Assembly: GCA_028874215.1 (NCBI GenBank)
Contig: JAPPLF010000108.1
Span: forward strand, 5,730-69,729
Direction: 5' to 3'
DNA: 64,000 bases
Origin: Acidobacteriota bacterium
Lineage (GTDB): Bacteria > Acidobacteriota > UBA6911 > RPQK01 > JAJDTT01
Part shown: positions 4,453 to 57,500 of the stretch, piece by piece
How the letters are laid out: each line of letters begins with the position of its first letter
How positions within the stretch are numbered: position 1 is the stretch's first letter
The notes under the pieces: model-generated
What the model was told of the DNA's origin: nothing
The model's input: only the letters and a program-made list of their open reading frames with translations
The model's database searches: none
Program-made: the position numbers and the translations under genes

Positions 4453-7260
4453 TCATTCCGTCGGCACATATTGAATATGCCGGATCCTGGGCGTGAACGA
4501 GTACAGCTCCGCCCTCTCGAGGTGGAAGCGCAGGCGGATGGGCCGGCCCTGGATCGGGTGGCAGTCCCGATTCCCGTTCCATTCCAGGACGTGCCGGACG
4601 CTGTCGGTGGTGAGGGGCTTGCAGTCTTCTCGGCCGAATCCCTCGATGACCCTTCCGTCCGGAGCCAGGACCTCCACCCGGATCGTCCCGCCTTCCGCGT
4701 CGGCGTTGACCTCCAACTCGTCGCCGACAAACACGAGGGGCTTGGTGGTGAGAGTTCCGGCTTTCGCAGCCTGGACTGCGACGAAGCCGTCCAGCCGCAG
4801 CGTGGCCAAGCCGACTCCGCTGGACTCCGTGTCGCCGTGGTAGCGGACTCCCCCGTGTCGGGTGGTGCTTCCCAGGTAGTAGATCCGGATCTGGTCGCCG
4901 ACCGCCAGCGGCGGCTGAAAGGCGTAGACGCTGCCCCAATCCCAGTCCTGGCCATGCTCGCCGTAGGAGAGGATGGCGGATTTCCGGGCGATCCTCCGCC
5001 AGTCGCGTCCATCCTGTTCCAACTGGCCATGGGGGATGGCGCCCTCGGGGCCGACCCGGGTCCAGGTGAGGCCGTTGCGGCTGAAGGTCAACTGGGTGTC
5101 GGCCCTGTCCATCCAGAGCTTGTCCGTCGGGATGGGCGCGTCGGTCTGGCCGTGGTAGGCCTCCAGCAATCCGATGTAGACCCCCTCGTAGGGCATGATC
5201 TTCATCCCGTAGTGCTGGGTTGCGAAGGGCTCGTCCATCCGGGTCCGGCGGATCACAGTGAGCTTGGGAGACCAGTGGACGAAGTCCTCGCTCTGGGTTC
5301 TGGCGATGAGCCGGATGTTGGGGGGGCCGAAGCGGAGGTAGCTCACGTAGGCGCCGGATCGCGGGTCCCAGTGGACGGAGCAGATGGTGTCGCTGTGGGG
5401 AACCACCGGGTTCAGGGGCTCCGGCGTCCAGCGGATGCCGTCGGGCGAGTAGGCGACGAAGGTGGCCCAGCCGTTGGGGACCTTGGGGTCCACGCCACCG
5501 TACATCATCTTGTAGCGGCGCCGGGGATCCGGATCGGCCGGGTCCTTGAAGACGGCCGGAGGATTGGCGTGGACGGGAGCGTCGGCGAGGTTGTTCCCGT
5601 CCCGGGTGTTGATGATCGGTTTGTCCCAGGCCAGTCCGTCCCGTGAGGTGGCATAGCCCAGAACGCCCTCGATCTCCCAGCCGTCCGCCGTCTTCTCCTC
5701 CTTGACGAAGTAGGGGTACCACATCTTGAAGATCCCCTCCGGCTCGTCGTAAAGGACCGCGCCCCGGTTGAGCTTCTGGGTCTCCCAGGGCCGGTCGGGG
5801 ACCATCAGGGGATTGCCGCGGTGCTTCACGGCCCGCTTCAGGACTCTGCGGGCTCCCTTGAGCTCTTGGATGACGTGATCGTCGATGAACAGCTCCTTGC
5901 CGCTGACGATGACGGCGTCCCCCAGGATCGCGTCGTCCAAGTCCCGGAACGGTCCCGAAGCCGGCGGCTCGGGGATCCCATCCCTCGCGGTGGTTCGTTC
6001 CCTCCGCCTCACGTCACCGGCGTCCGGCTGAGGCCCCTCGTTTCGCCACCAGCGCAGTTCCTGGCTCCCGCGCTCGGCGCAGGCCACGATGTCGAGCCTC
6101 CCGTCGCCGTTCAGGTCGGCCAGCAGCAGCTGATTGGCGCTGCGCCAATCCTCCTTCAGGACCCGGGTCCGCCAGAGACGGCCTGGGAGGCCCGGGTTTT
6201 CGAACCACGCGACGCGGCCGGGAGAACGCCAGGACGTGGCCGCGGCGTCGAGGTCTCCGTCTCCATCCAGATCGCCGGCCACCACTTCGAAGGCGTCCTG
6301 AAAACCCCGGGCCAGCACGTGCTTGGGCCAGGCTCCCGCCGCTGGGTTTCCGGTGTTTTCGTACCAGGCGACCTGATGGGTGTTGGCGTCCCCGGGATCC
6401 GCGTGCATGCCCAGGGCCATGACGATGTCCATGTCGCCGTCGCGGTCCATGTCCACCGGCTGTCCGTGGGTCGGGTAAGGCGTCTCGGCGTCCACGGAAT
6501 GACGCTTCCACGACACCTTTCCGCGGTCCCGGCCTCCCTGGTTCTCGTACCAGGCCACCAGGTCCGCCTCATGAACCGTGGCCAGCAGGTCCTGGTCGCC
6601 GTCTCCGTCGAAGTCGGCTGCCCGGATGGTCAGGGTCTGGGCGGGGCCGTTGTCCCGTGCGCGAAGATCGTCCTCGATGCGGTGCCGCGGCCAGCCGCCG
6701 GTTCCGGGCCATCCCCGGTTCTCGAACCAGAAGAAGTGACTCCCCTTCCAGGCCGATGCGGCGGCATCCATGTCTCCGTCCCCGTCCAGATCGGCCAGCT
6801 CCACGTCGTAGGCGTAGGGCATGGCGCGGGTGATCACGAGACGCTGCCACAGCCGGCCGTCCCCCGGGTTCCCGCCATTGCGAAACCAGAGCAGGTTGCC
6901 ATGGAGGTTCTTGACCGCCACCACGTCCAGGTTGCCGTCACCGTCCACGTCACCGATGGCGTGGCGCTCCAGGCGTTCGGGGTCGTCTCTGAAGATGAAA
7001 TGGCGCCGGAAGTTTCCGGAGCCGTCGTTCTCCAGCCAGTAGAGGGAATCGTGTCCGAAGGCGTCGGAGCTGGTCAGGTCCAGGTCGCCGTCGCCGTCCA
7101 GGTCCGCCGCCGCCACGCCGAAGGCGTAGGTGTAGTCGTCGAGGATCAGGTGCTCGGAGAATCTGGTGGCGTGTCCCGGCAGGGAAGAGCCGGGAACCAG
7201 GATGGCCAGGATGAAGAGAATCGGAAGTCGGGTGGGACCGGCCGGAAGGACGGGACTCAT
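4453..7260 (-). CDS. Secreted fusion of FG-GAP/VCBS propeller and glycosidase-like propeller, 935 aa
   Basis: The start at 7260 follows from the ATGA overlap with the gene upstream; a longer frame reading back to 7626 is antisense-like sequence. A signal peptide covers about residues 1-30. Residues 30-430 carry repeated DLDGDGDLD-type calcium-binding loops of FG-GAP/VCBS repeats, ending in LRWWRNEGP. From about 450 (ELFIDDHVIQ) begins a GH32/43-like five-bladed propeller with PWE, KMWY, YATSRDGLAW and IRWTPEP blocks, then a ~95-residue C-terminal beta domain shared with five other proteins here. Its N-terminal half is nearly a copy of the upstream protein, so it looks like a tandem duplication fused to a second module. 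Likely extracellular carbohydrate binding or cleavage; catalytic residues not identified. Confidence 0.75.
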   Translation of the reverse strand: MSPVLPAGPTRLPILFILAILVPGSSLPGHATRFSEHLILDDYTYAFGVAAADLDGDGDLDLTSSDAFGHDSLYWLENDGSGNFRRHFIFRDDPERLERHAIGDVDGDGNLDVVAVKNLHGNLLWFRNGGNPGDGRLWQRLVITRAMPYAYDVELADLDGDGDMDAAASAWKGSHFFWFENRGWPGTGGWPRHRIEDDLRARDNGPAQTLTIRAADFDGDGDQDLLATVHEADLVAWYENQGGRDRGKVSWKRHSVDAETPYPTHGQPVDMDRDGDMDIVMALGMHADPGDANTHQVAWYENTGNPAAGAWPKHVLARGFQDAFEVVAGDLDGDGDLDAAATSWRSPGRVAWFENPGLPGRLWRTRVLKEDWRSANQLLLADLNGDGRLDIVACAERGSQELRWWRNEGPQPDAGDVRRRERTTARDGIPEPPASGPFRDLDDAILGDAVIVSGKELFIDDHVIQELKGARRVLKRAVKHRGNPLMVPDRPWETQKLNRGAVLYDEPEGIFKMWYPYFVKEEKTADGWEIEGVLGYATSRDGLAWDKPIINTRDGNNLADAPVHANPPAVFKDPADPDPRRRYKMMYGGVDPKVPNGWATFVAYSPDGIRWTPEPLNPVVPHSDTICSVHWDPRSGAYVSYLRFGPPNIRLIARTQSEDFVHWSPKLTVIRRTRMDEPFATQHYGMKIMPYEGVYIGLLEAYHGQTDAPIPTDKLWMDRADTQLTFSRNGLTWTRVGPEGAIPHGQLEQDGRDWRRIARKSAILSYGEHGQDWDWGSVYAFQPPLAVGDQIRIYYLGSTTRHGGVRYHGDTESSGVGLATLRLDGFVAVQAAKAGTLTTKPLVFVGDELEVNADAEGGTIRVEVLAPDGRVIEGFGREDCKPLTTDSVRHVLEWNGNRDCHPIQGRPIRLRFHLERAELYSFTPRIRHIQYVPTE

Positions 7261-8519
7261 CGGGAGCCGCTTGCCTGGGAGCGTCCCGGCGGCCCCAGGT
7301 TTCGCCACCAGCGCAGTTCCTGGGTGCCCTTTTCGGCACACGCCGCGATGTCCAGCCGGCCGTTGCCGTCCAGGTCTGCGATCAGGATCTGATTGGCGCT
7401 CCGCCAGTCTTGCTTCAGGAGGTGCATGGTCCAGCGCTCGCCCTTGCGGCCGTGATTCCGGAACCACGCCACCCGGCCCGGGGTCCGCCACGAAGTGGCC
7501 GCCGCGTCCAGGTCGCCGTCGCCGTCCAGGTCCCCCGCCACCACCTCGAAGGCGTCCTGAAATCCGTCCCGGATCAGGTGCTTGGGCCAGGCGCCCGCAG
7601 CCGGAGTCCCGTTGTTCTCGTACCACGCGATCTGGTGAGTGGTCCTGTCCCCGGGCTTCCCGTGCATGCCCATGGCCATCAGGATGTCCAGGTCGCCGTC
7701 ACCGTCCATGTCCACCGGCTGTCCGTGGATGGGATTGCGGGTGCGGCCGTCCACGACGTGTTTGGTCCAGAGGACGGGGGTCGGCTGCAAGCGCGGCCAC
7801 GGCGCCTCGGTCGCCGTGGAGCGCCGGTTTTCATACCAGACGGTGAGGTCGGCCCCGGGCGCGGTGCCCAGGAGGTCCAGGTCCCCATCCCCGTCGAAGT
7901 CCCCGGCCCGCATGGCCCGGGTCCGGGAGGGTCCGTTGTCGCGGCCGCGGATATCGGCCTCGATCCGGTGCCTGGGCCAGCCTCTACGCCCCGGCCAGCC
8001 CGTATTCTCGAACCAGTAGAAGTGGGCTCCCTTCCAGCCGGAGGCGGCCGCATCCAGATCGCCGTCGCCGTCCAGGTCGCCCAGCACCACGTCGTAGGCG
8101 TAGGGCATACCCTGGGTGAGGACGACCCTCTGCCAGAGCCGGCCATCCTGGGGCGTCCCGTTGTTCCGGAACCAGAGGAGGTCTCCGTAGAGGTTCTTGA
8201 CGATGACCACGTCCAGGTCCCCGTCGCCGTCGACGTCCCCCAGGGCATGGCGTTCCAGCCGCTCGGGATCGTCCCGTTGAATGAAAAACTTCGTGAATTC
8301 TCCGGTCCCGTCGTTCTGGAACCAGTAGAGGGAATCGTGCCCGAAGGCGTCGGCGCTGGTCAGGTCCACGTCGCCGTCGCCGTCCAGGTCGCCGGCTCCG
8401 ACTCCGTAGGTGTAGGTGTAGCCGTCCTGGATCAGGTGCTCCGAGAATCGTGGCGCTTGGGCCAGGAGCGGTGGTGCCAGAAAGAAGGCGGTGAAAACGA
8501 GGGCAACAGCGCCGTTCAT
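7257..8519 (-). CDS. Secreted FG-GAP/VCBS repeat propeller protein, 420 aa
   Basis: A Sec signal peptide (MNGAVALVFTAFFLAPPLLAQ) is followed by about seven FG-GAP/VCBS repeats, each with a DLDGDGDxD calcium loop and a WF/YENxG strand. Such domains fold as an integrin-alpha-like beta propeller outside the cell and bind calcium and often glycans. An AAGGAG ribosome site lies five bases before the ATG. The last codon overlaps the next gene (ATGA), so the two are one transcription and translation unit. Its sequence is closely similar to the N-terminal 400 residues of that downstream protein. No enzyme motif is visible; a binding or scaffold role is inferred. Confidence 0.8.
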   Translation of the reverse strand: MNGAVALVFTAFFLAPPLLAQAPRFSEHLIQDGYTYTYGVGAGDLDGDGDVDLTSADAFGHDSLYWFQNDGTGEFTKFFIQRDDPERLERHALGDVDGDGDLDVVIVKNLYGDLLWFRNNGTPQDGRLWQRVVLTQGMPYAYDVVLGDLDGDGDLDAAASGWKGAHFYWFENTGWPGRRGWPRHRIEADIRGRDNGPSRTRAMRAGDFDGDGDLDLLGTAPGADLTVWYENRRSTATEAPWPRLQPTPVLWTKHVVDGRTRNPIHGQPVDMDGDGDLDILMAMGMHGKPGDRTTHQIAWYENNGTPAAGAWPKHLIRDGFQDAFEVVAGDLDGDGDLDAAATSWRTPGRVAWFRNHGRKGERWTMHLLKQDWRSANQILIADLDGNGRLDIAACAEKGTQELRWWRNLGPPGRSQASGSR

Positions 8520-8619
8520 GGTGTCTCCTTAGTCCGCAATCTGTCACAGTCGGGGTATCATTGCAACGGGCCGAACGGTGACGCCCACAGGATTGGGAGT
8601 GACAGGTACGAAAGAAGGT

Positions 8620-8877
8620 ATGTTGCCAATCCATCACTTCACACTGATTGTCGATGGTGCCGACCTGCAGGATGATGCGGTCATCGACGCGTTGTTCGAA
8701 GCGGGGTGCGACGACGCGACGGTTGGCCGAACCGACGGAATCCAATATCTCGACTTTGACCGCGAAGCAGCCACCCGGGCCGAGGCGATCCGATCAGCAG
8801 TGACCGGTGTAGAACGTGTCGATGGTGTCCATGTCGTTCGGATTGCAACCGCCGAACCGCGACCTGCGGTTACGTGA
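8620..8877 (+). CDS. Small protein resembling the N-terminal domain of an HTH antitoxin-like family, apparently truncated
   Basis: This 85-residue frame starts MLPIHHFTLIVDGADLQDD and contains LFEAGCDDATVG and YLDFDREA blocks. From memory these are typical of the N-terminal part of a family of ~130-150-residue proteins whose C-terminal half is a helix-turn-helix of the DIAERTGRSRESVR type. Here the frame stops at VRIATAEPRPAVT, and I see no HTH in any downstream frame. It may be a degraded regulator or a short natural variant. A 42-bp longer in-frame start exists at 8578. It is flanked by convergent and divergent secreted-protein genes that give no clue to function. Confidence 0.55.
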   Translation: MLPIHHFTLIVDGADLQDDAVIDALFEAGCDDATVGRTDGIQYLDFDREAATRAEAIRSAVTGVERVDGVHVVRIATAEPRPAVT

Positions 8878-8903
8878 GACTTTGTTTCGCGAAACGGGTC
8901 TCA
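8875..8903. terminator. Palindromic hairpin between convergent genes
   Basis: Nested inverted repeats TGAGAC (8875-8880)/GTCTCA (8898-8903) enclose the perfect palindrome GTTTCGCGAAAC (8884-8895). It overlaps the stop codons of both convergent genes (8877 on plus, 8901 on minus), a position suited to a bidirectional terminator. No strong U-run follows, so factor-independent termination is uncertain. Confidence 0.4.
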
Positions 8904-10700
8904 GTCGGAATGCGGAGCTTGTTCGATTGCCTGCTCTTGTCGAGTGGGTCCCGCAGCGCCACCGCCGGGACGGGATGAGTATGACCTGCCGCGCACCTCT
9001 CGTCCCTTGAGGCGAAGAGGTTCGAGCTCCGCCCCCTCCTTTAGACGGTAGTGAAGATTGGCCGCGACTCCGTCAAAGGTCTGTACCGCGCCGCTACGCC
9101 AACGGACGATCAGCTTCTTCGCCTCCGCCAACTCTCCCAGGCCGAAGTGAAGGCGGAAGTCGTTGGTGGCCTGGTAGCTGGATCCCCCCTGGACCTCCTG
9201 CAACTGGCTCCAGTCCCCGGCCTGAAGGATCACCCGGGTGCCGATGGCGCTCCGGTTTGAGGGTTTTCCTTCCAGTGCCAGGTTCAGCCAGTGTCCGGCG
9301 CCTCCCGCGCCCTCGTTGCGGTAAAGGGAGGCGCGCTCGTCCAGGTTGTTGACGGCCACGTCCAGGTCGCCGTCATTGTCGAAATCGGCGAAGGCCGCTC
9401 CCCGGCTGGACCAGGGCCGGGAGAGGTCCTCGCCCCATTCCCCGGCCGTCTCCCGGAATTTCCCGTTCCCCTGATTCCGAAAGAGGAGCTTGCGCTGGGC
9501 GAAGCGGGTGCCCGTCTCGTAGCCGTCCACCTGCGGATAGATGTGCCCGTTGGAAACGAACAGATCCAGCCAGCCGTCGTTGTCCAGATCGGCGAATTGG
9601 ACTCCCCAGCCGAGGAACTGCCAACTGGGGAAGGCCACTTCCGCAGCGTAGGTGACGTCTCGAAACAGCCGTCCTCTCCGGTTGCGGTAAAGGGTGTGGT
9701 AATCGTCCGAGAAATTGGTCACATAGAGATCCAGAAAGCCGTCCCGGTCATAATCGCCGAAGGCCACTCCCATGCCCGCCTGCTCCCGGCCGTCCTGGTT
9801 GTAGGCGACTCCTCCCAGCGCCGCTACCTCCAGGAAACGTCCGTCCCCCCGGTTTTGGAACAGGAAGTTGGCCATGGAGTCGTTGGCCACGTAGAGGTCC
9901 GGGTCGCCGTCGTTGTCGTAGTCGCCCCAGACGGCTCCGAGGCCGTAGGCGGGAGTCACCGCCAGGCCCGCCTCGGAAGTCACTTGGGTGAAGGTCCCGT
10001 CGCCGCGGTTTCGGTAGAGCGCGTCGGGGGCGGCGGTCATCTCTTTGGGGCCGCAGTGGACCGTGATCCCCCGGTAGTTGCACTCGGGCGGGAGCGGGGA
10101 ATGGGGATCGAATACCACATAGTTGGTGACGTAAAGGTCGATCCACCCGTCCCCGTCGTAGTCGCTGAAGGCGGCCGACGAGCTCCAGCGGGAATTCCCG
10201 GCGCCGCTGCCGGCGGTGACGTCGGCGAAGGTGCCGTCGCCGTTGTTTCGGTAGAGGATGTTGGGACCGAAGTTGCACAGGTAGAGGTCGGGCCAGCCGT
10301 CGTTGTCCACGTCGCCCACCGTGGCTCCCATGCCCCAGTGGGGACTGGTCAGGCCGGATCCGGCAGTGACGTCGGCGAAGGTGCCGTCGCCGTTGTTGCG
10401 GTAGAGGGCGTTGGAGACGCTCCGCGTGCCGGCCAGCAACTCGTCCCACTTGCCCCCGTTCACCAGGTAGAGGTCGGGCCAGCCGTCCCGGTCGTAGTCG
10501 ATCCAGGCGACCCCGCCACCGATGGTCTCCAGGATGAAATTCTTCTCGGGACTCCCGCTGTGGTGCCGAAAATCGAGGCCCGCCTCAGGGGCGATGTCCA
10601 GGAATCGGATGCTCAGCAGAAGAAGGAACGGGATCATGAATGACCATATGGTTCCCCAGGAAAACCTCAGTGTCGAGTGCTGCCGGTCGGCCGCCTGCAT
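8901..10700 (-). CDS. CRTAC1-type protein: FG-GAP/VCBS repeats with C-terminal ASPIC/UnbV domain, 599 aa
   Basis: An N-terminal hydrophobic segment (IPFLLLLSIRFL) is followed by FLDIAPEAGLDFRHHSGS, the usual opening of CRTAC1-like bacterial proteins. About seven repeats follow, with WIDYDRDGWPDLYLVNGG, VGDVDNDGWPDLYL and FADLDNDGWLDLFV calcium loops. The last ~100 residues are an ASPIC/UnbV domain (HWLNLALEGKPSNRSAIGTR, VQGGSSYQATND, LHFGLG, VRWRSGAVQTF). These proteins are secreted or surface-bound and usually lie near uncharacterised catabolic loci; the molecular role is not established. An internal ATG at 10637 would give a more typical signal peptide and could be the true start. Confidence 0.85.
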   Translation of the reverse strand: MQAADRQHSTLRFSWGTIWSFMIPFLLLLSIRFLDIAPEAGLDFRHHSGSPEKNFILETIGGGVAWIDYDRDGWPDLYLVNGGKWDELLAGTRSVSNALYRNNGDGTFADVTAGSGLTSPHWGMGATVGDVDNDGWPDLYLCNFGPNILYRNNGDGTFADVTAGSGAGNSRWSSSAAFSDYDGDGWIDLYVTNYVVFDPHSPLPPECNYRGITVHCGPKEMTAAPDALYRNRGDGTFTQVTSEAGLAVTPAYGLGAVWGDYDNDGDPDLYVANDSMANFLFQNRGDGRFLEVAALGGVAYNQDGREQAGMGVAFGDYDRDGFLDLYVTNFSDDYHTLYRNRRGRLFRDVTYAAEVAFPSWQFLGWGVQFADLDNDGWLDLFVSNGHIYPQVDGYETGTRFAQRKLLFRNQGNGKFRETAGEWGEDLSRPWSSRGAAFADFDNDGDLDVAVNNLDERASLYRNEGAGGAGHWLNLALEGKPSNRSAIGTRVILQAGDWSQLQEVQGGSSYQATNDFRLHFGLGELAEAKKLIVRWRSGAVQTFDGVAANLHYRLKEGAELEPLRLKGREVRGRSYSSRPGGGAAGPTRQEQAIEQAPHSD

Positions 10701-50085: not shown

Positions 50086-51132
50086 TCAATACCCGGCCGT
50101 CTTGTTGACGACGTTCCGGAGGGGCCGGCCGGTGGCGAACCGTTCGATGTTGTCACGGATCAGATTCGCGAGCCGAACCCGCGACAGACGGGAGCGGGTC
50201 GCCACGTGGGGTGTGATGATGACGTTGTCCATCTTCCAGAGCGGATGGTCGGCGGGAAGCGGTTCCGGATCGGTGACGTCCAGGCCGGCGGCCAGGACTT
50301 TGCCTGATCGCAGGGCCTCCAGCAGCGCGTCGGTCCGGATCACCTTTCCCCGGGAGACGTTCACCACGTAGACGCCCTCCTTCATGGCGGCGAACTCGGC
50401 GGGTCCCAGCATTCCTTCCGAGGCGGGCGTGTGGGGGACGCAGCTCACCACCACGTCGGCCTCCGGGAGGACCCGGTGCAACTGGTCCGGAGCCACCACC
50501 TCCTCCACGTCACGGCTCAGCGGGATGTCCTTGGGGTCGACGCCCAGGACCCGCATGTCGAAGGCCGCGGCGCGTTGGGCCACCTGGGAGCCGATGCCGC
50601 CCAAGCCGATGATCACCATGGTCTTGCGGCGGAGCTCGATCATGGGCAGCCGGGTCTTCCCGCGCATCCAGTTTCCGCGGTCCATTTCCCGGTCGTACTC
50701 TTTGAGATTCCGGGTGAGGGCGAGCAGCAGGGCGAAGACATGGTCGGCGATCTCGGGTCCCATCATGATCTTGGCGTTGGTCAAGGTGATGTCGCTGTCC
50801 CTCAATTCGGGAATGTGGACGATCTTCTCCACTCCGGCGCTGGTGCTGTGCACCCATCTCAGCTTCTTTCCCTGGCGCAGGATTTCCTGGCCCTTTTGGC
50901 CGTAGGGAAGCCCGATGATGGCATCGCAGTCGGCGATGACGCCGGCAATCCCCCCCTGGCCGGCCGTTACCAGCTCCAGGTTGGGCAGCCGCTTTTCCAG
51001 ATCGGCGAACTGTTTCTTGTCGCCGGCCCCGACCAGGACCCTCACCTTCGAGGCGAGGGCCGGACTCTGACCCTGGGCCACGATCCAGAGCAAGCACAGA
51101 ATCGTTGTCTTCATTGCGAACCGCGTGTGCAT
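50086..51132 (-). CDS. D-2-hydroxyacid dehydrogenase with N-terminal signal peptide, 348 aa
   Basis: A GGAGAAGG ribosome site lies before ATG 51132, which starts a Sec-type leader (MKTTILCLLWIVAQGQSPALA inside the first 28 residues). The catalytic core is complete: the GLGGIGSQVAQRA Rossmann loop, VNVSRGKVIRTDAL (substrate Arg), DVTDPEPLPADHPLW (Glu) and ITPHVATRS (catalytic His). Such enzymes reduce 2-keto acids with NADH in the cytoplasm, so an exported form is unexpected: free NAD is scarce in the periplasm. The divergent aldolase-like gene also has a leader. Family certain, export inferred. Confidence 0.88.
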   Translation of the reverse strand: MHTRFAMKTTILCLLWIVAQGQSPALASKVRVLVGAGDKKQFADLEKRLPNLELVTAGQGGIAGVIADCDAIIGLPYGQKGQEILRQGKKLRWVHSTSAGVEKIVHIPELRDSDITLTNAKIMMGPEIADHVFALLLALTRNLKEYDREMDRGNWMRGKTRLPMIELRRKTMVIIGLGGIGSQVAQRAAAFDMRVLGVDPKDIPLSRDVEEVVAPDQLHRVLPEADVVVSCVPHTPASEGMLGPAEFAAMKEGVYVVNVSRGKVIRTDALLEALRSGKVLAAGLDVTDPEPLPADHPLWKMDNVIITPHVATRSRLSRVRLANLIRDNIERFATGRPLRNVVNKTAGY

Positions 51133-51243: not shown

Positions 51244-52200
51244 ATGAGGAAATGGACACTGCTGCTGGTAATGACCCTTTTCCCCCATCTGGCCGGCTCC
51301 GGGACCGTCGCCTCTTCTGAAGCGGCCGAATCCCCGAAGCGGATCAACAAGGCCATCGAGCTGCTGGAGCGAGGGCAGCCCATCTACTACACGGGAGGCC
51401 ACGGCGGTTACGAGGAGGGGCGCAAGCTGGCCCGGACCTGGGCCGACTACATCAACTACGAGATGGAGCATGGGTCCTACGACGTGACGGCGCTCCGGAG
51501 ATTCATGCAGGGCCTGGTGGACGGCGGCCCCACCCCCAGCGGACACCGGACGCCGGCCGTGATCTGCACGCTGCCCGTGGGCGGAATCGACGAGGCCACC
51601 ATGAAGGCCAACTACTGGATGGTGCAACAGGTCCTGGCCACCGGCGTCCATGGGATCCTGCTCTGCCACGCGCGGACTCCGGGAGCGGTCCGGGTCCTGG
51701 TCCAGGCCGCCCGCTATCCCTTTCACCGCCAGGGAGTGGGGTCCGCGCTCGAAGAGGGGCTGAGAGGCAGCGGAGGCCAAGGCTACGCCAGCCAGATCTG
51801 GGGGGTCAGAGGGGGCCGTTACCTGGAATTGGCCGATCCCTGGCCCCTGAATCCCCAGGGAGAGATTCTGTTGGGTCTCAAGGTGGAAGACCGGCACGCT
51901 CTGATCAATGCGGAGGGGAGCATTCAGGTGCCGGGGGTGGGATTCGCCGAGTGGGGTCCCAGCGACATGAGATTTTCGTTGCGGGCCACAAAACTCCCGG
52001 GCGAGGAAATCTCCAAGCGGCTGCAAGCGGCCCGGCAACGAGTCTTTGCGGCCTGCAAGTCGGCCGGAGTGGCCTTCCTCAACGGCGTGCGGCCGGATAC
52101 GGTGATCGCCATGATCGACGAGGGCGTCATGATCGGGTCCGGAGGGCAGGAAGCCGCCGAGAAGGGGCGCAAGTACACCAAGCGGAAGATGCCCTGGTGA
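51244..52200 (+). CDS. HpcH/HpaI aldolase-family protein with signal peptide, 318 aa
   Basis: A Sec-type leader (MRKWTLLLVMTLFPHLAGSG) precedes an HpcH/HpaI-like barrel: GILLCHARTPGAVRVLVQAA, ILLGLKVEDRHALINAEG (acidic metal ligand region) and GVGFAEWGPSDMRFSLR (Gly-rich turn and Asp), then AGVAFLNGV. Family members cleave or form 2-keto-3-deoxy sugar acids with a divalent metal. Here both the leader and a ~60-residue N-terminal extension are unusual. The gene is divergent from the dehydrogenase at 50086-51132 across 111 bases, so they may process the same acid outside the cytoplasm. Confidence 0.75.
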   Translation: MRKWTLLLVMTLFPHLAGSGTVASSEAAESPKRINKAIELLERGQPIYYTGGHGGYEEGRKLARTWADYINYEMEHGSYDVTALRRFMQGLVDGGPTPSGHRTPAVICTLPVGGIDEATMKANYWMVQQVLATGVHGILLCHARTPGAVRVLVQAARYPFHRQGVGSALEEGLRGSGGQGYASQIWGVRGGRYLELADPWPLNPQGEILLGLKVEDRHALINAEGSIQVPGVGFAEWGPSDMRFSLRATKLPGEEISKRLQAARQRVFAACKSAGVAFLNGVRPDTVIAMIDEGVMIGSGGQEAAEKGRKYTKRKMPW

Positions 52201-52239: not shown

Positions 52240-54921
52240 TCAGGCTTCCGGAGGTCCGGTCACGATCGGTGCGGCGACGACTTTTCCGCCCGATCGCGCC
52301 GTCGCGATGACGGTTTCCCCAGGTTCCACGTCGACGAGGCCCGCGACGGGCAACCGCCCGTCCGGGAGTGTGCGCGCGCCGCGCAGCGGTCTTCCGTCGG
52401 TTCGGGAGAGCAACACGTCGGCGTCGGGCAGCAACGTGACGGCGGGCAGGGAACAGGAGGGGATTCTCCCGGTGCGGGAAGCGGGTTCACGGACCTGGCC
52501 TCCGCCACGGGGGCGCTCGGCCGGTGGGTCCACCAGGTTCCGGATCCGCAGACCAATGGCCGGGTCCTCCCCTCTCGGGTCGAACTCCATTTCCAGGAAA
52601 TTCCAGTAGAAGGGTCCGTCCAGCTTGCGCAGGTCCGGCGTGTCGTAGCTCTGGTGGTAGAGCGCCGTGACGGCCACCTCCCGCCCGTCGAAATCGGTCA
52701 TGCGCGGCCCGAAGCCCTCCTTGACGCCCCGGCCCCCGCTCCGGCCGATGGGACCGAAGGAACATTCCAAGACCCGGTGCTCCACGTTCTGCAGGATCAT
52801 GCCGGTATGAACGTCCCCGTAGACCGTGGTCACGCCCGTGCGTGAACCGAGCAGCTCCAGCACCCGGTCCGACCCCGCCGCGACCCATCCGGCGTAATCG
52901 GCCGCCACCCGGTCGCGCTCGCCGAGGCTGGTCTTGGCGTCGGGCCGCCGGCCGTCCCCGGTCCAGATGGTGTGAAGGCCGTTGATGCCGGTCAGGCAGA
53001 TCAGAGGCGAGGAATCGGTGCGAATCGTCTCGCGCAGCCAGGCGAACTGCTCCTCTCCCAGGAGACTGCGGGTGACGTCGGTCCGCGGATAGAGGTTCTC
53101 CCTGGCGCCCCAGCCCTGGTCGTCCCAGATGTTGGTGTCCTGGCTGGAGCGCCAGAGGCGGGAGTCGAGGATGAGCAGGCTGAAATCGCCATTGGGCATC
53201 TTCCAGCGCCGCCATTTCTTGGGGTTTTCGGTTCCGGAAGGCGCCTCGTCTCCCGTCACCAGGTGGTGAACGATCTGGAAGTTGCGCCGCATGTAGTCCC
53301 GGTCCTGGCCGAGATCGCCGTGGGCCCGGATGGCGATCTGCTCCGGACCCTTGACGTCGTCCATGCCGTAATCGTGGTCGCCGGGATTGATGGTGTTCCA
53401 GTGGCGCATCATCTGCCAGCGCGTGGTGGGGCCGCAGAGCGTGGTGGTGACGATCTTGTACGCGTCGTCGGGGGAGGGCGGGTAGAGGAGGAGTTCCATG
53501 TACCAGACGTCGTCCTCCCACATCATGACCTGGAAACCGTATTCCTCCAGGTGCCGGTAGGCGCCCGGCGTGGGCTGGTCGTGGACGAAGAACCCTCCAC
53601 CCGGTCCCGCATCGGGCAGATTCGGCTGACTTCCGTGGATGGCATGGCAGGAGAGGCCGCACAGCCGGTAGGGGGCCGAGAGCCTGGGGAGCCGCCCCAC
53701 GTAGGCGCCGCTTTCGGGGACGCCGCCGACCTGGCCGGTGCCGATGCCGACGGCGTCGCTGCCCGGTCTGGGGTCCGCCGTCACGTTGCGTCCGTCTTTC
53801 CAGACCGTGTAGTAGAGGTCGGTTTCCGCGGGATTCCGTGGCAAAGTGGCGTCGATCACGGCCGAATTGCGCCGGAAGCCGTTGTTGACGATGGGACCCC
53901 GCCCCGCCACCGGAACCGGCTCCCAGCCCCCGGCCGGATGCGGCGTGTCCGCGACCCGCACCTCGGCCCTCTCGCCGTCGCTGCGGAACAGGGCGATGAA
54001 TCGCACTTGCCAGGCGTCGCCTGCCTGGCAAAGGGTGTCCCCCAAGGCGTAGCAGACGTGGCACTCGTTGAGCAGCGGGTCCAGGGGAATGTTCTCGCCC
54101 GGGTCGATCCTGAATTCGTCGACTTCGAAGTCCAGGAGGCCGCGTGCCGCGATTCCTGCGAAGCCCTGAAGGTGTCTTGTGCGGTCCCGGTTCTCCACCT
54201 GAATCTCGGCGACTCTGCCGCGTCCCTCGAGGTCCAGCGACGCCGACACGGTTCCGCGGTTGGAATCGGCGCCTGAGACGGACACGACGATCCGGTAACT
54301 GTCTCCGGCTGCCGGCTTCGGAACCCGTTTGCCGGTGATCACGGTTTCCGAACCGTGCTCACGAATCCCGAAGCGGCCGTCGTCGGTCCACGCCGCGATC
54401 CAGGCCGCCTTCCCGTCGGGTCCGGACATGCCGAACGACTCGTACAGAGTCGACGAACCGAAAGCGAGGCCCAGCAGGCCGTACCCCGCCTGGTACATGC
54501 GCCAGTTCGGATCGTCGTTCTCCCATGGGCCGTGCGAGGGGGCGTGAATCCGTCCCGTCATCTCGAGCCCGTAGTTGCCGGCCAGGCGCCAATGCCGGTG
54601 CCAGGTCAGCCCCGGGGGAAGCGAGGGGTCGTAGTCGACCGGCATGGTGTGGCTCCCCAGCCGGTCTCCGTGAGTCTCGTAGTGATAGGGGAATCCCGTG
54701 TTGCGGGCCCGGTCGCCCAAGTTGTGGATCCGCCGCCGCAGGGCGTTGTTCCGGATGCTCCAGTAACCGGGATTGAGCGTCTCCCAATCGTCCCCGTGGT
54801 AAAGGGAGTCCGGCCGCCGGAACGAGACGGCGTGCGCCCGAGCCTCTTTGGTGGAGACCGAGGCCACCGCCGTGGCCGTCGCCGCCTGCAGGAACGTTCT
54901 GCGGTTCATGGAGTTTTTCAT
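52240..54921 (-). CDS. Tat-exported PhoD-like metallophosphatase, 893 aa
   Basis: The leader NRRTFLQAATATAVAS is twin-arginine type. Residues ~35-290 form an extra N-terminal beta region (LNPGYWSIRNNALRRRIHN, GLTWHRHWRLAGNYGLE) resembling a concanavalin-like domain. The PhoD core follows: SCHAIHGSQPN, INPGDHDYGMDDVKG (metal Asp/His/Asp) and YGDVHTGMILQN (His). PhoD enzymes are calcium/iron phosphodiesterases for extracellular organic phosphate, usually near 500-600 residues, so this one is enlarged. It lies 59 bases after the tetraheme cytochrome and may belong to the same operon. Substrate unassigned. Confidence 0.75.
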   Translation of the reverse strand: MKNSMNRRTFLQAATATAVASVSTKEARAHAVSFRRPDSLYHGDDWETLNPGYWSIRNNALRRRIHNLGDRARNTGFPYHYETHGDRLGSHTMPVDYDPSLPPGLTWHRHWRLAGNYGLEMTGRIHAPSHGPWENDDPNWRMYQAGYGLLGLAFGSSTLYESFGMSGPDGKAAWIAAWTDDGRFGIREHGSETVITGKRVPKPAAGDSYRIVVSVSGADSNRGTVSASLDLEGRGRVAEIQVENRDRTRHLQGFAGIAARGLLDFEVDEFRIDPGENIPLDPLLNECHVCYALGDTLCQAGDAWQVRFIALFRSDGERAEVRVADTPHPAGGWEPVPVAGRGPIVNNGFRRNSAVIDATLPRNPAETDLYYTVWKDGRNVTADPRPGSDAVGIGTGQVGGVPESGAYVGRLPRLSAPYRLCGLSCHAIHGSQPNLPDAGPGGGFFVHDQPTPGAYRHLEEYGFQVMMWEDDVWYMELLLYPPSPDDAYKIVTTTLCGPTTRWQMMRHWNTINPGDHDYGMDDVKGPEQIAIRAHGDLGQDRDYMRRNFQIVHHLVTGDEAPSGTENPKKWRRWKMPNGDFSLLILDSRLWRSSQDTNIWDDQGWGARENLYPRTDVTRSLLGEEQFAWLRETIRTDSSPLICLTGINGLHTIWTGDGRRPDAKTSLGERDRVAADYAGWVAAGSDRVLELLGSRTGVTTVYGDVHTGMILQNVEHRVLECSFGPIGRSGGRGVKEGFGPRMTDFDGREVAVTALYHQSYDTPDLRKLDGPFYWNFLEMEFDPRGEDPAIGLRIRNLVDPPAERPRGGGQVREPASRTGRIPSCSLPAVTLLPDADVLLSRTDGRPLRGARTLPDGRLPVAGLVDVEPGETVIATARSGGKVVAAPIVTGPPEA

Positions 54922-54979
54922 TGCTTGCGTCTCCAGCCGGGGCGGCCGCCGCCGCGTCCCGGCGAGCGCCGGCCCCGTC

Positions 54980-55534
54980 TCAGTTGTGACAGAGTTTGCA
55001 GGCCTGCTCCCGGTCTACGATGAGATGATCCGCCACCGTGGAACCATGGGCGTTGTGGCAGAGGCCGCAGTCGCGAAGGACGTGAGGGGCGTGCTGGTGG
55101 CTGTCCACGAACGTGGTCTTCTTGTGACAGGCGAAGCAATCGCCCTTGAAGCGAAACCGTCCCCGCCGGCTCAGCGCGTGACAGGTCTGGCAGTCGATGG
55201 CGAACGGTGGATGCAGGCGAAAGGGAGCGAATCCCTCGGGCGCTCCCTCTCCCACGAAGAACCGGATCTCCCGGCGTCCGTCCTCCCAGACCAGGGCCAG
55301 CGAGTGCTCTCCGGGACCCGGAGTGACCTTGGCATGGAAAACGTCGGGAAAGGGTTCGTGGGCGGAGAGAAGCTGGCCGTCGAGTTCCAGCCGGGCGCCG
55401 GGACCGGTAGCCGCAATGCTGATCTCTCCGGCGGGAAGGATCGACCGGTCGGGCGGCCGGACGATCTTGCCCTCCTCTCCCGCAATGGCGGGAGGGAGCA
55501 GACCCAGGACGACTGCGGCAACCAGGGTTCTCAC
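54980..55534 (-). CDS. Tetraheme c-type cytochrome, 184 aa
   Basis: GTG 55534 overlaps the upstream stop (GTGA) and starts a signal peptide (VRTLVAAVVLGLLPPAIAG). A beta domain (PPDRSILPAGEISI to REIRFFVGEG) precedes four CxxCH heme sites in the last 75 residues: CQTCH, CFACH, CGLCH and a final CKLCH just before the stop. Extra His residues (HQHAPHV, DHLIV) could be second ligands. It should carry electrons in the periplasm. Being coupled to the propeller and FMN dehydrogenase genes, it is the likely electron acceptor of that dehydrogenase. Confidence 0.85.
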   Translation of the reverse strand: MRTLVAAVVLGLLPPAIAGEEGKIVRPPDRSILPAGEISIAATGPGARLELDGQLLSAHEPFPDVFHAKVTPGPGEHSLALVWEDGRREIRFFVGEGAPEGFAPFRLHPPFAIDCQTCHALSRRGRFRFKGDCFACHKKTTFVDSHQHAPHVLRDCGLCHNAHGSTVADHLIVDREQACKLCHN

Positions 55535-56298
55535 AAGTGGAGGCGGCAGATGTAGCCCGAGTACCGGCTGTTCGAGTCCCCTCCGCCGGGAGCGATGCCG
55601 GCGTCGGTGTAGTAGAAGACCCCCTGGTGCATGGTCATCCCGTGGGGATCGGGGTCGGACCGGCTCAACTGGATGGCCTCCATGATGCGGCCGTCCTTGG
55701 CGTCCAGACGGTGGATCACGTAGTCGTTCGAGAACATGCACCAGATGGAACCGTCGTCCCACGCCAGCCCGTGGGCCCGTCCCAGGGTCACCGGGATGGA
55801 GTGAAGAACGCGGAAATCGGGATCCACCTGGGTCAGGCTCTTGCGGCGCAAGGTGGTGATCCAGAGGGTGTTTTCGGCCCAGTTCAGGCCGTGCACGCCC
55901 CCTCCGCCCGGAACCGGATGCCGGGCCAGGGTCTTGCCGGTTGCGGGGTCGATCTGCAGGATACGTCCGGTCTTGGCGTCCGTCGGTCTCGGCGGCCTTC
56001 GCAGTGCGGGTCCGTTGGCCGCCATCCAGAGGTAGCCTCCCCCGTACGCCATGCCGCTGGTGTTCGTGGACTCGGTCGGAACTTCCTGCAATACCTTGCC
56101 CGTCTTCCAGTCCAGAAGGTAGGCCTTGTTGGTGAGCTGCTCTCCCACCCAGAGCCCCTCGGCGGTGGCCTCCAAGGCGTTGGGATATTTGTCGGGAGAC
56201 CGCCACAGGGTCTCCACTCGGGGTGTGCGGACCGGATAGCCTCGCGGCCCCAGCGCGGCCGCCGCCAGCAGCTCCAAGAATTCTCTGCGATAGAACAT
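55531..56298 (-). CDS. YncE/SMP-30-like beta-propeller protein, 255 aa
   Basis: After a short RR-containing leader (YRREFLELLAAAALGPRG) come repeated propeller blades with GLWVGEQLTNKAYLLDWKTG, GRILQIDPATGKTLARHPV, NTLWITTLRRKSLTQVD and YVIHRLDAKDGRIMEAI. The spacing matches YncE, PQQ or SMP-30-like propellers, but conserved PQQ ligands are not evident. Its ATG overlaps the FMN dehydrogenase stop by one base (TGATG), and its own stop overlaps the cytochrome start, so it is in the middle of a tightly coupled operon. Possibly a docking or substrate-binding subunit. Confidence 0.8.
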   Translation of the reverse strand: MFYRREFLELLAAAALGPRGYPVRTPRVETLWRSPDKYPNALEATAEGLWVGEQLTNKAYLLDWKTGKVLQEVPTESTNTSGMAYGGGYLWMAANGPALRRPPRPTDAKTGRILQIDPATGKTLARHPVPGGGGVHGLNWAENTLWITTLRRKSLTQVDPDFRVLHSIPVTLGRAHGLAWDDGSIWCMFSNDYVIHRLDAKDGRIMEAIQLSRSDPDPHGMTMHQGVFYYTDAGIAPGGGDSNSRYSGYICRLHL

Positions 56299-57500
56299 CA
56301 GAACCCCCGTATCCGAACCAGGGACTTGTCGATTTCGGCAATCCTGGCGACGCCGGCCATTCCCATATCCAGCGCCAATTCCACTCGAAGCAGTTCGAGC
56401 ACCCGGGAGACTCCCTGGTGGCCGAAGCAGGTCAGCCCCCAGAGATAGGGACGCGCCACGCCCACGGCGGTGGCTCCCAGCGCCAGGGCCTTCAGGATGT
56501 CTCCGCCGCGGCGAAAGCCTCCGTCGATCAGCACGGGCAGGCGGCCCTGGGCCGCGGCGACGCACTCGGGCAGAGCCTCGATGGTGCCGCCCACGTGATC
56601 CAGTTGCCGGGCCCCGTGATTGGAGACCACGACCGCCGCCACGCCCTGTTCCGCGCACTTCGCCGTGTCCTCGGCCGTCATGACCCCCTTGATGATGATG
56701 GGCAGGTCCGTCAGCTTCATCAACTGGTCCAGCGTTTCCCAGGTCGGTGTGGGAAACGGACGCTCGGGATAGACGCCGGTGCGCCAGAAGCGGTCCCGGG
56801 GTGTGTAAATCAGATTCCCTTCCGCGTCTCTGGGAATTCCGGTATCACACCACCCGCGTACGAACCGGTTGTAGATGCTCCGTTCCCGGTAGGAGACGTG
56901 CATGTTGTCCACGGTGAAGCAGATGCCGGCGGCTCCCTGATCCTCCAGCCGCTCCACGAAGTTCAGCATGCTGTTTTCATTTCTGAACTCGCCGCCGGTC
57001 GTGTACTGCCACCAGTACCTGGGGCCCTCGCCCGATTCCAGGTATTCGTCGATGCCGCCGTTGGTGATGAACATGGCTCCGGAAGCCGCCGCGCCGCGGG
57101 CGGCCTCCTCTTCTCCGCCCGGAAAGAAACAGTTCTTGCCGCCGGCCGGACAGACGAAGATGGGATAGTCGAGTTTCGTGTCCAGGAAATCGATGGAGGT
57201 GTCGATCTTGTGGACGTCGGTCAGGATCTTGGGGCGGAGGATGATCCGCTCGAAGGCCTTCCGGTTGTCGCGGAGGGACACCTCGTCCTGGGAGCCTTCG
57301 GCCATGTAGGCCCAGGCCACCGGGTCGAGCTTGGACTGGGCCAGCTTTTCGAAGTCGAAGACGTTGACCAGATCCAGAAGCTGCTTCTCGCTTTCCGGGG
57401 ACGAAAGCGCGGATTCGAGCAGGCCGGTCCGTCCCGCCAGAAGCGGAGAGGAGATCAAAAACTGGGCAAAAGCGGCTATAGCGTGGCGTCGAGTGAGCAT
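56298..57500 (-). CDS. Tat-exported FMN-dependent alpha-hydroxyacid dehydrogenase, 400 aa
   Basis: The leader (LTRRHAIAAFAQFLIS) is twin-arginine type. The core is the lactate-oxidase/flavocytochrome b2 barrel: VAWAYMAEGSQDEVSLRDN, LDYPIFVCPAGGKNCFFPGG, LPIIIKGVMTAEDTAKCAEQ and the family signature SNHGARQLD holding the active-site His and Arg, then VLIDGGFRRGGDILKALALG for FMN phosphate. Members oxidise L-lactate, glycolate, mandelate or longer 2-hydroxyacids. Export and the coupled tetraheme cytochrome suggest a dehydrogenase that passes electrons to heme, not oxygen. Substrate cannot be read from sequence. Confidence 0.88.
   Translation of the reverse strand: MLTRRHAIAAFAQFLISSPLLAGRTGLLESALSSPESEKQLLDLVNVFDFEKLAQSKLDPVAWAYMAEGSQDEVSLRDNRKAFERIILRPKILTDVHKIDTSIDFLDTKLDYPIFVCPAGGKNCFFPGGEEEAARGAAASGAMFITNGGIDEYLESGEGPRYWWQYTTGGEFRNENSMLNFVERLEDQGAAGICFTVDNMHVSYRERSIYNRFVRGWCDTGIPRDAEGNLIYTPRDRFWRTGVYPERPFPTPTWETLDQLMKLTDLPIIIKGVMTAEDTAKCAEQGVAAVVVSNHGARQLDHVGGTIEALPECVAAAQGRLPVLIDGGFRRGGDILKALALGATAVGVARPYLWGLTCFGHQGVSRVLELLRVELALDMGMAGVARIAEIDKSLVRIRGF

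Follow-up and report, generated by a model that had tools for sequence, protein, structure and literature searches.

A Tat-type FMN-dependent hydroxyacid dehydrogenase encoded with a predicted tetraheme cytochrome and a beta-propeller in Acidobacteriota

The window analyzed here, a 64,000-nucleotide stretch of contig JAPPLF010000108.1 from an Acidobacteriota bacterium, carries on its minus strand three consecutive genes coding for putatively exported proteins: an FMN-dependent alpha-hydroxyacid dehydrogenase with a twin-arginine translocation (Tat)-type leader (positions 56298 to 57500; 400 aa), a five-bladed beta-propeller with an RREFL leader (55531 to 56298; 255 aa), and a tetraheme c-type cytochrome with a GTG start and a Sec-type leader (54980 to 55534; 184 aa). 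The first was recognized by its Pfam FMN_dh match, Foldseek comparisons, and conserved residues, the second by its predicted structure and profile searches, and the third by its four CXXCH motifs. The flavoprotein stop codon overlaps the propeller ATG by 1 nucleotide (nt) (TGATG), and the propeller stop codon overlaps the cytochrome GTG by 4 nt (GTGA). These junctions had been reported in an earlier reading of the DNA alone (here, the original prediction); they are borne out at that position, and such overlapping frames support the cotranslation that was proposed from them. Every sequenced genome of the genus, four in number, carries the block (the G003 contig starts partway through its propeller), and, because the three genomes other than the window's own retain it, the arrangement is not due to chance. 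Full-text searches of the literature outside subscription papers returned no description of a flavoprotein-propeller-cytochrome unit; the flavoprotein and the tetraheme cytochrome are thus a genuine pair that recurs among relatives and that, to the extent of these searches, has not been described.

A scan with one genome per species recovered about 33 further loci of this type (hereafter class I), all in records titled Acidobacteria and, where a finer taxonomy is available, mostly in Bryobacterales; one of these is only a C-terminal fragment, and one is a tandem pair. Our comparison set comprises 34 class I flavoprotein genes, including that of the window, with identities of 53 to 100%. The window's flavoprotein matches Pfam FMN_dh (PF01070) over residues 54 to 396 (E = 7.4e-95; 318 bits versus a cutoff of 24.9), and its predicted model matches the folds of glycolate oxidase and flavocytochrome b2 (Foldseek E of about 1e-27; 1.3e-26 for flavocytochrome b2). 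Its best score against the NCBIfam subfamily models for LldD, lactate oxidase, and MftD is 175 bits, which falls below their cutoffs of 376 to 645. Residues Y65, D198, R205, K271, H295, and R298, which correspond to Tyr24, Asp157, Arg164, Lys230, His254, and Arg257 in glycolate oxidase numbering, are invariant in all 34 sequences. The catalytic H295 and the substrate-binding R298 lie in an SNHGAR motif (56607 to 56624, minus strand) and are further shared with glycolate oxidase and lactate oxidase; R205 is the other of the two Arg residues assigned to the substrate. By alignment, Tyr129 of glycolate oxidase is replaced by T167 in the window (57000 to 57002, minus strand) and by Thr (31 sequences) or Asn (3 sequences) across class I, whereas 37 of 37 distant homologues have Tyr. 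The loop bearing Trp108 is four residues shorter in class I, in which GGKNC and WC motifs are invariant, as is a Cys pair, C124/C218, close to a loop modeled with low confidence. Since Tyr129 and the Trp108 loop are lost while the His, Arg, Lys, and Tyr24 positions are kept, this protein is an FMN_dh homologue with the residues for hydroxyacid chemistry intact but with a remodeled pocket. A Pfam search of the 400-aa flavoprotein detected no cytochrome b5 domain.

The twin-arginine leader MLTRRHAIAAFAQFLISSPLLAG occupies about residues 1 to 24 of the flavoprotein (57429 to 57500, minus strand), with the RR followed by a hydrophobic stretch, and is kept across class I, nearly all members of which have the RR. 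Under a strict test that demands both the RR and the subsequent hydrophobic stretch at the N terminus, a leader was found in 29 of 34 class I proteins, in 12 of 12 and 9 of 10 members of two related groups (classes II and III; see below), and in none of the 32 FMN_dh proteins outside this clan. The flavoprotein is thus predicted to be Tat exported, as originally proposed, and neither of the outcomes set beforehand as telling against that proposal, a want of conservation and the lack of a leader in relatives, was encountered. Genes for TatC and for three proteins of c-type cytochrome assembly are present in the window's genome. Heme c is attached outside the cytoplasm, and a c-type cytochrome hence requires an export leader.

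The cytochrome carries the heme motifs CQTCH (55178 to 55192), CFACH (55124 to 55138), CGLCH (55055 to 55069), and CKLCH (54986 to 55000), all on the minus strand, and an alignment of 17 homologues with identities down to 34% revealed that all four CXXCH motifs are invariant. Four further His residues in the heme region, H108, H146, H148, and H163, are likewise invariant in this alignment, which would suffice for four hemes with bis-His ligation; the N-terminal region, which is beta-rich and has no Pfam match, contains a fifth invariant nonmotif His, H77. The leader is hydrophobic and of the Sec type. The protein matches Pfam Paired_CXXCH_1 (3e-6), and its heme region aligns with chain 6r2q_A (8e-13), which we take to be a decaheme MtrA-type chain (the name in the match table being wrong), and weakly with DmsE-type models. 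It is like the MtrA/DmsE-type cytochromes with doubled CXXCH motifs in its heme region but differs in having only four predicted hemes and an additional beta-rich region at its N terminus. The motifs, leader, and potential His ligands identify it as a predicted multiheme c-type cytochrome, in agreement with the four-heme partner originally postulated.

The propeller had been described as YncE-like, an assignment that did not hold. Its AlphaFold model (pLDDT of 89) is a five-bladed propeller whose fold is closest to the bacterial and plant glutaminyl cyclases (3mbr and 3nol rank first), with YncE in 38th place, and its identity to any solved structure among the matches listed is at most 20%. 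Sequence profile searches place virginiamycin B lyase (2qc5; 4e-9) closest among proteins of solved structure, and the match to Pfam Vgb_lyase (PF24684) reaches 21.1 bits versus a cutoff of 50. Residues H176, D217, H219, and D232 are invariant and, by profile alignment, form a pattern like that of the His and Asp positions which we take to be the metal site of virginiamycin B lyase. The propeller has no CXXCH heme motif, and its role would be enzymatic or in binding rather than in electron transfer. A paralogous Tat-type propeller is encoded elsewhere in the window's genome, directly 3' of a gene for a GHL10-type glycosyl hydrolase-like protein (L223 in our set, positions 5421 to 8159 on contig 25).

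The gene neighborhoods of the 34 class I flavoproteins contain both partners in 6 cases, the cytochrome alone in 12, the propeller alone in 9, and neither in 7. The tetraheme gene thus adjoins 18 of them (the window's and 17 others, one cut at a contig end), and the propeller adjoins 15, being upstream in one of the propeller-alone cases. The genus keeps the block and the flavoprotein-cytochrome link recurs, but the three-gene set is not universal, and the three genes cannot be upheld as the one fixed, self-contained unit of the original prediction; the set is instead one of several wirings. The adjacency of flavoprotein and tetraheme genes persists down to identities of 54% for the former and 34% for the latter, and every junction among the downstream pairs tabulated either overlaps or spans at most 51 nt. 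In the 17 further flavoprotein-cytochrome loci, no other open reading frame (ORF) has two or more CXXCH motifs, and clustering of all flanking genes revealed no other neighbor common to distant lineages. Cytochrome partners occur on both sides of the class I flavoprotein tree, which implies that the association is old or that the two genes have moved as a pair. No 16S gene by which to place the host phylum occurs in the window's genome. Among 396 genomes from the window's phylum, close homologues of either protein are confined to its own genus, so horizontal transfer is possible. Class I genomes have several flavoprotein paralogues each, while the full-length cytochrome is single copy and adjoins the class I flavoprotein. 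In the genome labeled G060, a propeller-cytochrome pair stands apart from tandem flavoproteins; this pair (contig 143, positions 5831 to 7176; L222) is divergent from a gene whose Tat-type product belongs to the N,N-dimethylformamidase beta-like family.

The further Tat-type FMN_dh paralogues found in class I genomes led to a wider picture, for which 40 of their loci were examined. Class II (n = 12; L230 to L239, L242, and L243) has Phe at position 24, Ser or Thr at 127, and Thr, Val, or Ser at 129; a six-heme gene adjoins seven of its members, and one more lies beside an ORF in which three motifs can be read. In class III, two loci have a five-heme gene upstream. Class IV (n = 23) is distinguished by a CXXCH motif located in loop 4 of its FMN barrel, which is invariant in all 23 members (L247, L248, L250 to L260, L262 to L264, L266, and L269, together with L108, L112, L123, L132, and L138), and takes in some sequences from the first scan as well as two alphaproteobacterial records; most have RR leaders, and H52 and H116 (numbering of the L253 ORF) are near-invariant, so that these proteins are candidates for flavocytochromes c that contain their own heme. 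In a quick tree with some long branches, the exported enzymes group together on a single side (SH-aLRT of 86), class I is sister to class II (96), and the sequences with the internal CXXCH arose only once (100). The strongest reason for regarding c-type heme as the acceptor of the clan is that multiheme neighbors accompany 28 of the 56 exported flavoproteins of classes I to III versus none of 32 others (Fisher P = 1.3e-7, which is uncorrected for kinship among the related rows and hence only indicative). We put forward, tentatively and at slightly less than an even chance, that these proteins constitute an uncharacterized clan of Tat-exported FMN hydroxyacid dehydrogenases, of which the window's unit is one branch, with coupling to c-type heme in at least four ways (four-, six-, and five-heme partners and the loop 4 heme motif), two branches without the active-site tyrosine, and a hitherto undescribed periplasmic respiration of hydroxyacids. 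Five loci (L246, L249, L265, L267, and L268) contain tandem Tat-type FMN_dh pairs in which the second copy lacks most catalytic residues, with His254 changed to Tyr or Trp in several and Asp157 and Arg164 lost in most, as if the pairs were made up of a catalytic and a noncatalytic subunit.

Taken together, the window's unit is probably a periplasmic 2-hydroxyacid:cytochrome c dehydrogenase, in which electrons would pass via FMN to the cotranslated tetraheme cytochrome, with the propeller as an auxiliary component. Under this proposal, the flavoprotein would fold around FMN in the cytoplasm and then be exported by the Tat system to the periplasm, where it would oxidize a 2-hydroxyacid, yielding the 2-keto acid. 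The reaction would be the usual hydride transfer involving His295, Arg298, Lys271, and Tyr65, in a pocket remodeled through the absence of Tyr129 and the Trp108 loop. The two electrons would leave FMN singly for the four bis-His hemes of the cytochrome, which would deliver them to the respiratory chain, while the propeller would act on the substrate, the product, or assembly and would not carry electrons. This interpretation draws on the 18 loci, spread over both sides of the tree, in which the flavoprotein and cytochrome genes adjoin, their ends overlapping or touching, the placement of the single-copy cytochrome beside the class I flavoprotein among several paralogues, the continued pairing of cytochrome and propeller away from the flavoprotein in G060, the invariance of the heme motifs and the four extra His residues, the presence of TatC and the cytochrome assembly proteins, and the ties of sister paralogues to c-type hemes, be they six-heme, five-heme, or internal. 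Thus, a chain from hydroxyacid to cytochrome c, as originally envisaged, is likely, but not as a fixed three-gene unit.

Several observations weigh against this interpretation. Nearly all of the loci come from metagenome-assembled genomes, and 16 of the 34 class I flavoproteins have no adjacent cytochrome. In a search of 13 genomes of the latter kind, a full-length tetraheme copy was found elsewhere only in G060; as the cytochrome is then neither adjacent nor elsewhere, the class I flavoproteins of genomes without any full-length copy must use another acceptor. The loss of Tyr129, moreover, sets class I apart from all characterized relatives. In p-hydroxymandelate oxidase (Hmo), the equivalent Tyr128 is described as forming a conserved dyad together with His252, and the Y128F variant stays active and yields an O2-dependent, four-electron oxidative decarboxylation (PMC6677016). 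This precedent and the lineages without a cytochrome partner would fit a flavoprotein that uses O2, either as an oxidase or for oxidative decarboxylation, in the manner of lactate monooxygenase or Hmo Y128F, the cytochrome having a separate job with, e.g., peroxide or another acceptor. We consider this unlikely, given that overlapping flavoprotein and cytochrome genes recur, that the six-heme, five-heme, and built-in motifs of the sister classes point to a heme acceptor, and that the heme motifs resemble those of bis-His electron transfer cytochromes with no obvious open site for peroxide.

It is less probable still that the propeller is itself a catalytic partner, namely, a metal-dependent lyase, lactonase, or cyclase releasing or consuming the hydroxyacid, such that the unit would be a short extracellular degradation pathway rather than just an electron chain. 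The invariant His and Asp residues, the proximity of the fold to five-bladed glutaminyl cyclases, and the nine loci that pair propeller and flavoprotein without a cytochrome are in its favor, but the propeller is missing from 12 loci that pair flavoprotein and cytochrome, its identity to the solved structures listed is low, and its Vgb_lyase match is far below the cutoff. That the cluster is a chance or housekeeping neighborhood of separately acting exported proteins would agree with the scarcity of loci holding all three genes and with the flanking genes that vary between lineages; we regard it as very improbable because flavoprotein-cytochrome, flavoprotein-propeller, and propeller-cytochrome pairs all recur with overlapping frames across deep divergence.

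For the dehydrogenase reading, the best-supported mechanism is that the unit would work like flavocytochrome b2, the yeast L-lactate:cytochrome c oxidoreductase (EC 1.1.2.3), in which electrons pass from lactate through FMN and heme to cytochrome c, without being one. The two are alike in the homologous FMN barrel, the catalytic His, Arg, Lys, and Tyr, the topological side, and the heme acceptor, which is conjectural here; they differ in that flavocytochrome b2 has a fused b-type heme in place of the separate tetraheme c-type protein and that its Tyr254, the equivalent of Tyr129, is Thr in the window. LldD, S-mandelate dehydrogenase, and the glycolate and lactate oxidases, all of PF01070, have the same fold as the window's flavoprotein and a largely shared active site; the window's protein differs from them in scoring far below the NCBIfam cutoffs, in lacking Tyr129 and the Trp108 loop, and in possessing the GGKNC and WC motifs. 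LldD and similar FMN hydroxyacid dehydrogenases of bacteria are known to reduce quinone on the cytoplasmic side, and none of the enzymes just named is known to be Tat exported with a c-type partner. The original prediction had drawn its contrast with lactate dehydrogenases that are either on the cytoplasmic side or fused to b2 heme. Flavocytochrome b2 acts in the mitochondrial intermembrane space (PMC6472588), which is topologically equivalent to the periplasm, so export alone provides no contrast to it; the separate c-type multiheme partner does. A like division of labor, with an exported flavoprotein and a c-type cytochrome oxidizing hydroxyacids or sugars outside the cytoplasm, is found in complexes of the gluconate 2-dehydrogenase type, which consist of an FAD-containing GMC subunit, a Tat small subunit, and a c-type cytochrome (PMC6472588), but their flavoprotein belongs to a family unrelated to FMN_dh. 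If the proposal is correct, soil, freshwater, and other Acidobacteria could oxidize hydroxyacids without importing them, the unit would be an independent bacterial counterpart to flavocytochrome b2, and it would offer a test of the need for the active-site tyrosine when heme replaces O2 or quinone in taking the electrons. Makers of direct-electron-transfer electrodes could take an interest in class IV with its candidate built-in heme c.

Beyond the cytochrome, at a distance of 58 nt, begins an ORF for an 893-aa PhoD-like Tat protein (52240 to 54921, minus strand), which scores 23.7 bits against Pfam PhoD, below the cutoff of 27. The original prediction was right that a large PhoD-like protein follows, but we do not count it in the unit: it is a neighbor in the genus only and is absent from the loci of other lineages, and we have rejected it as a fourth subunit. 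Further along lie genes for a D-2-hydroxyacid dehydrogenase-like protein (50086 to 51132, minus strand) and an HpcH/HpaI-type aldolase (51244 to 52200, plus strand), both with signal peptide-like N termini, and the two also adjoin the unit in two other genus members; an export signal is odd on an NAD-type enzyme such as the former. In another locus (L078, positions 6231 to 10358), a class I flavoprotein gene lies between an upstream propeller and a pair of genes for a GMC oxidoreductase and a Gluconate_2-dh3 protein, neighbors that hint at the oxidation of sugar acids.

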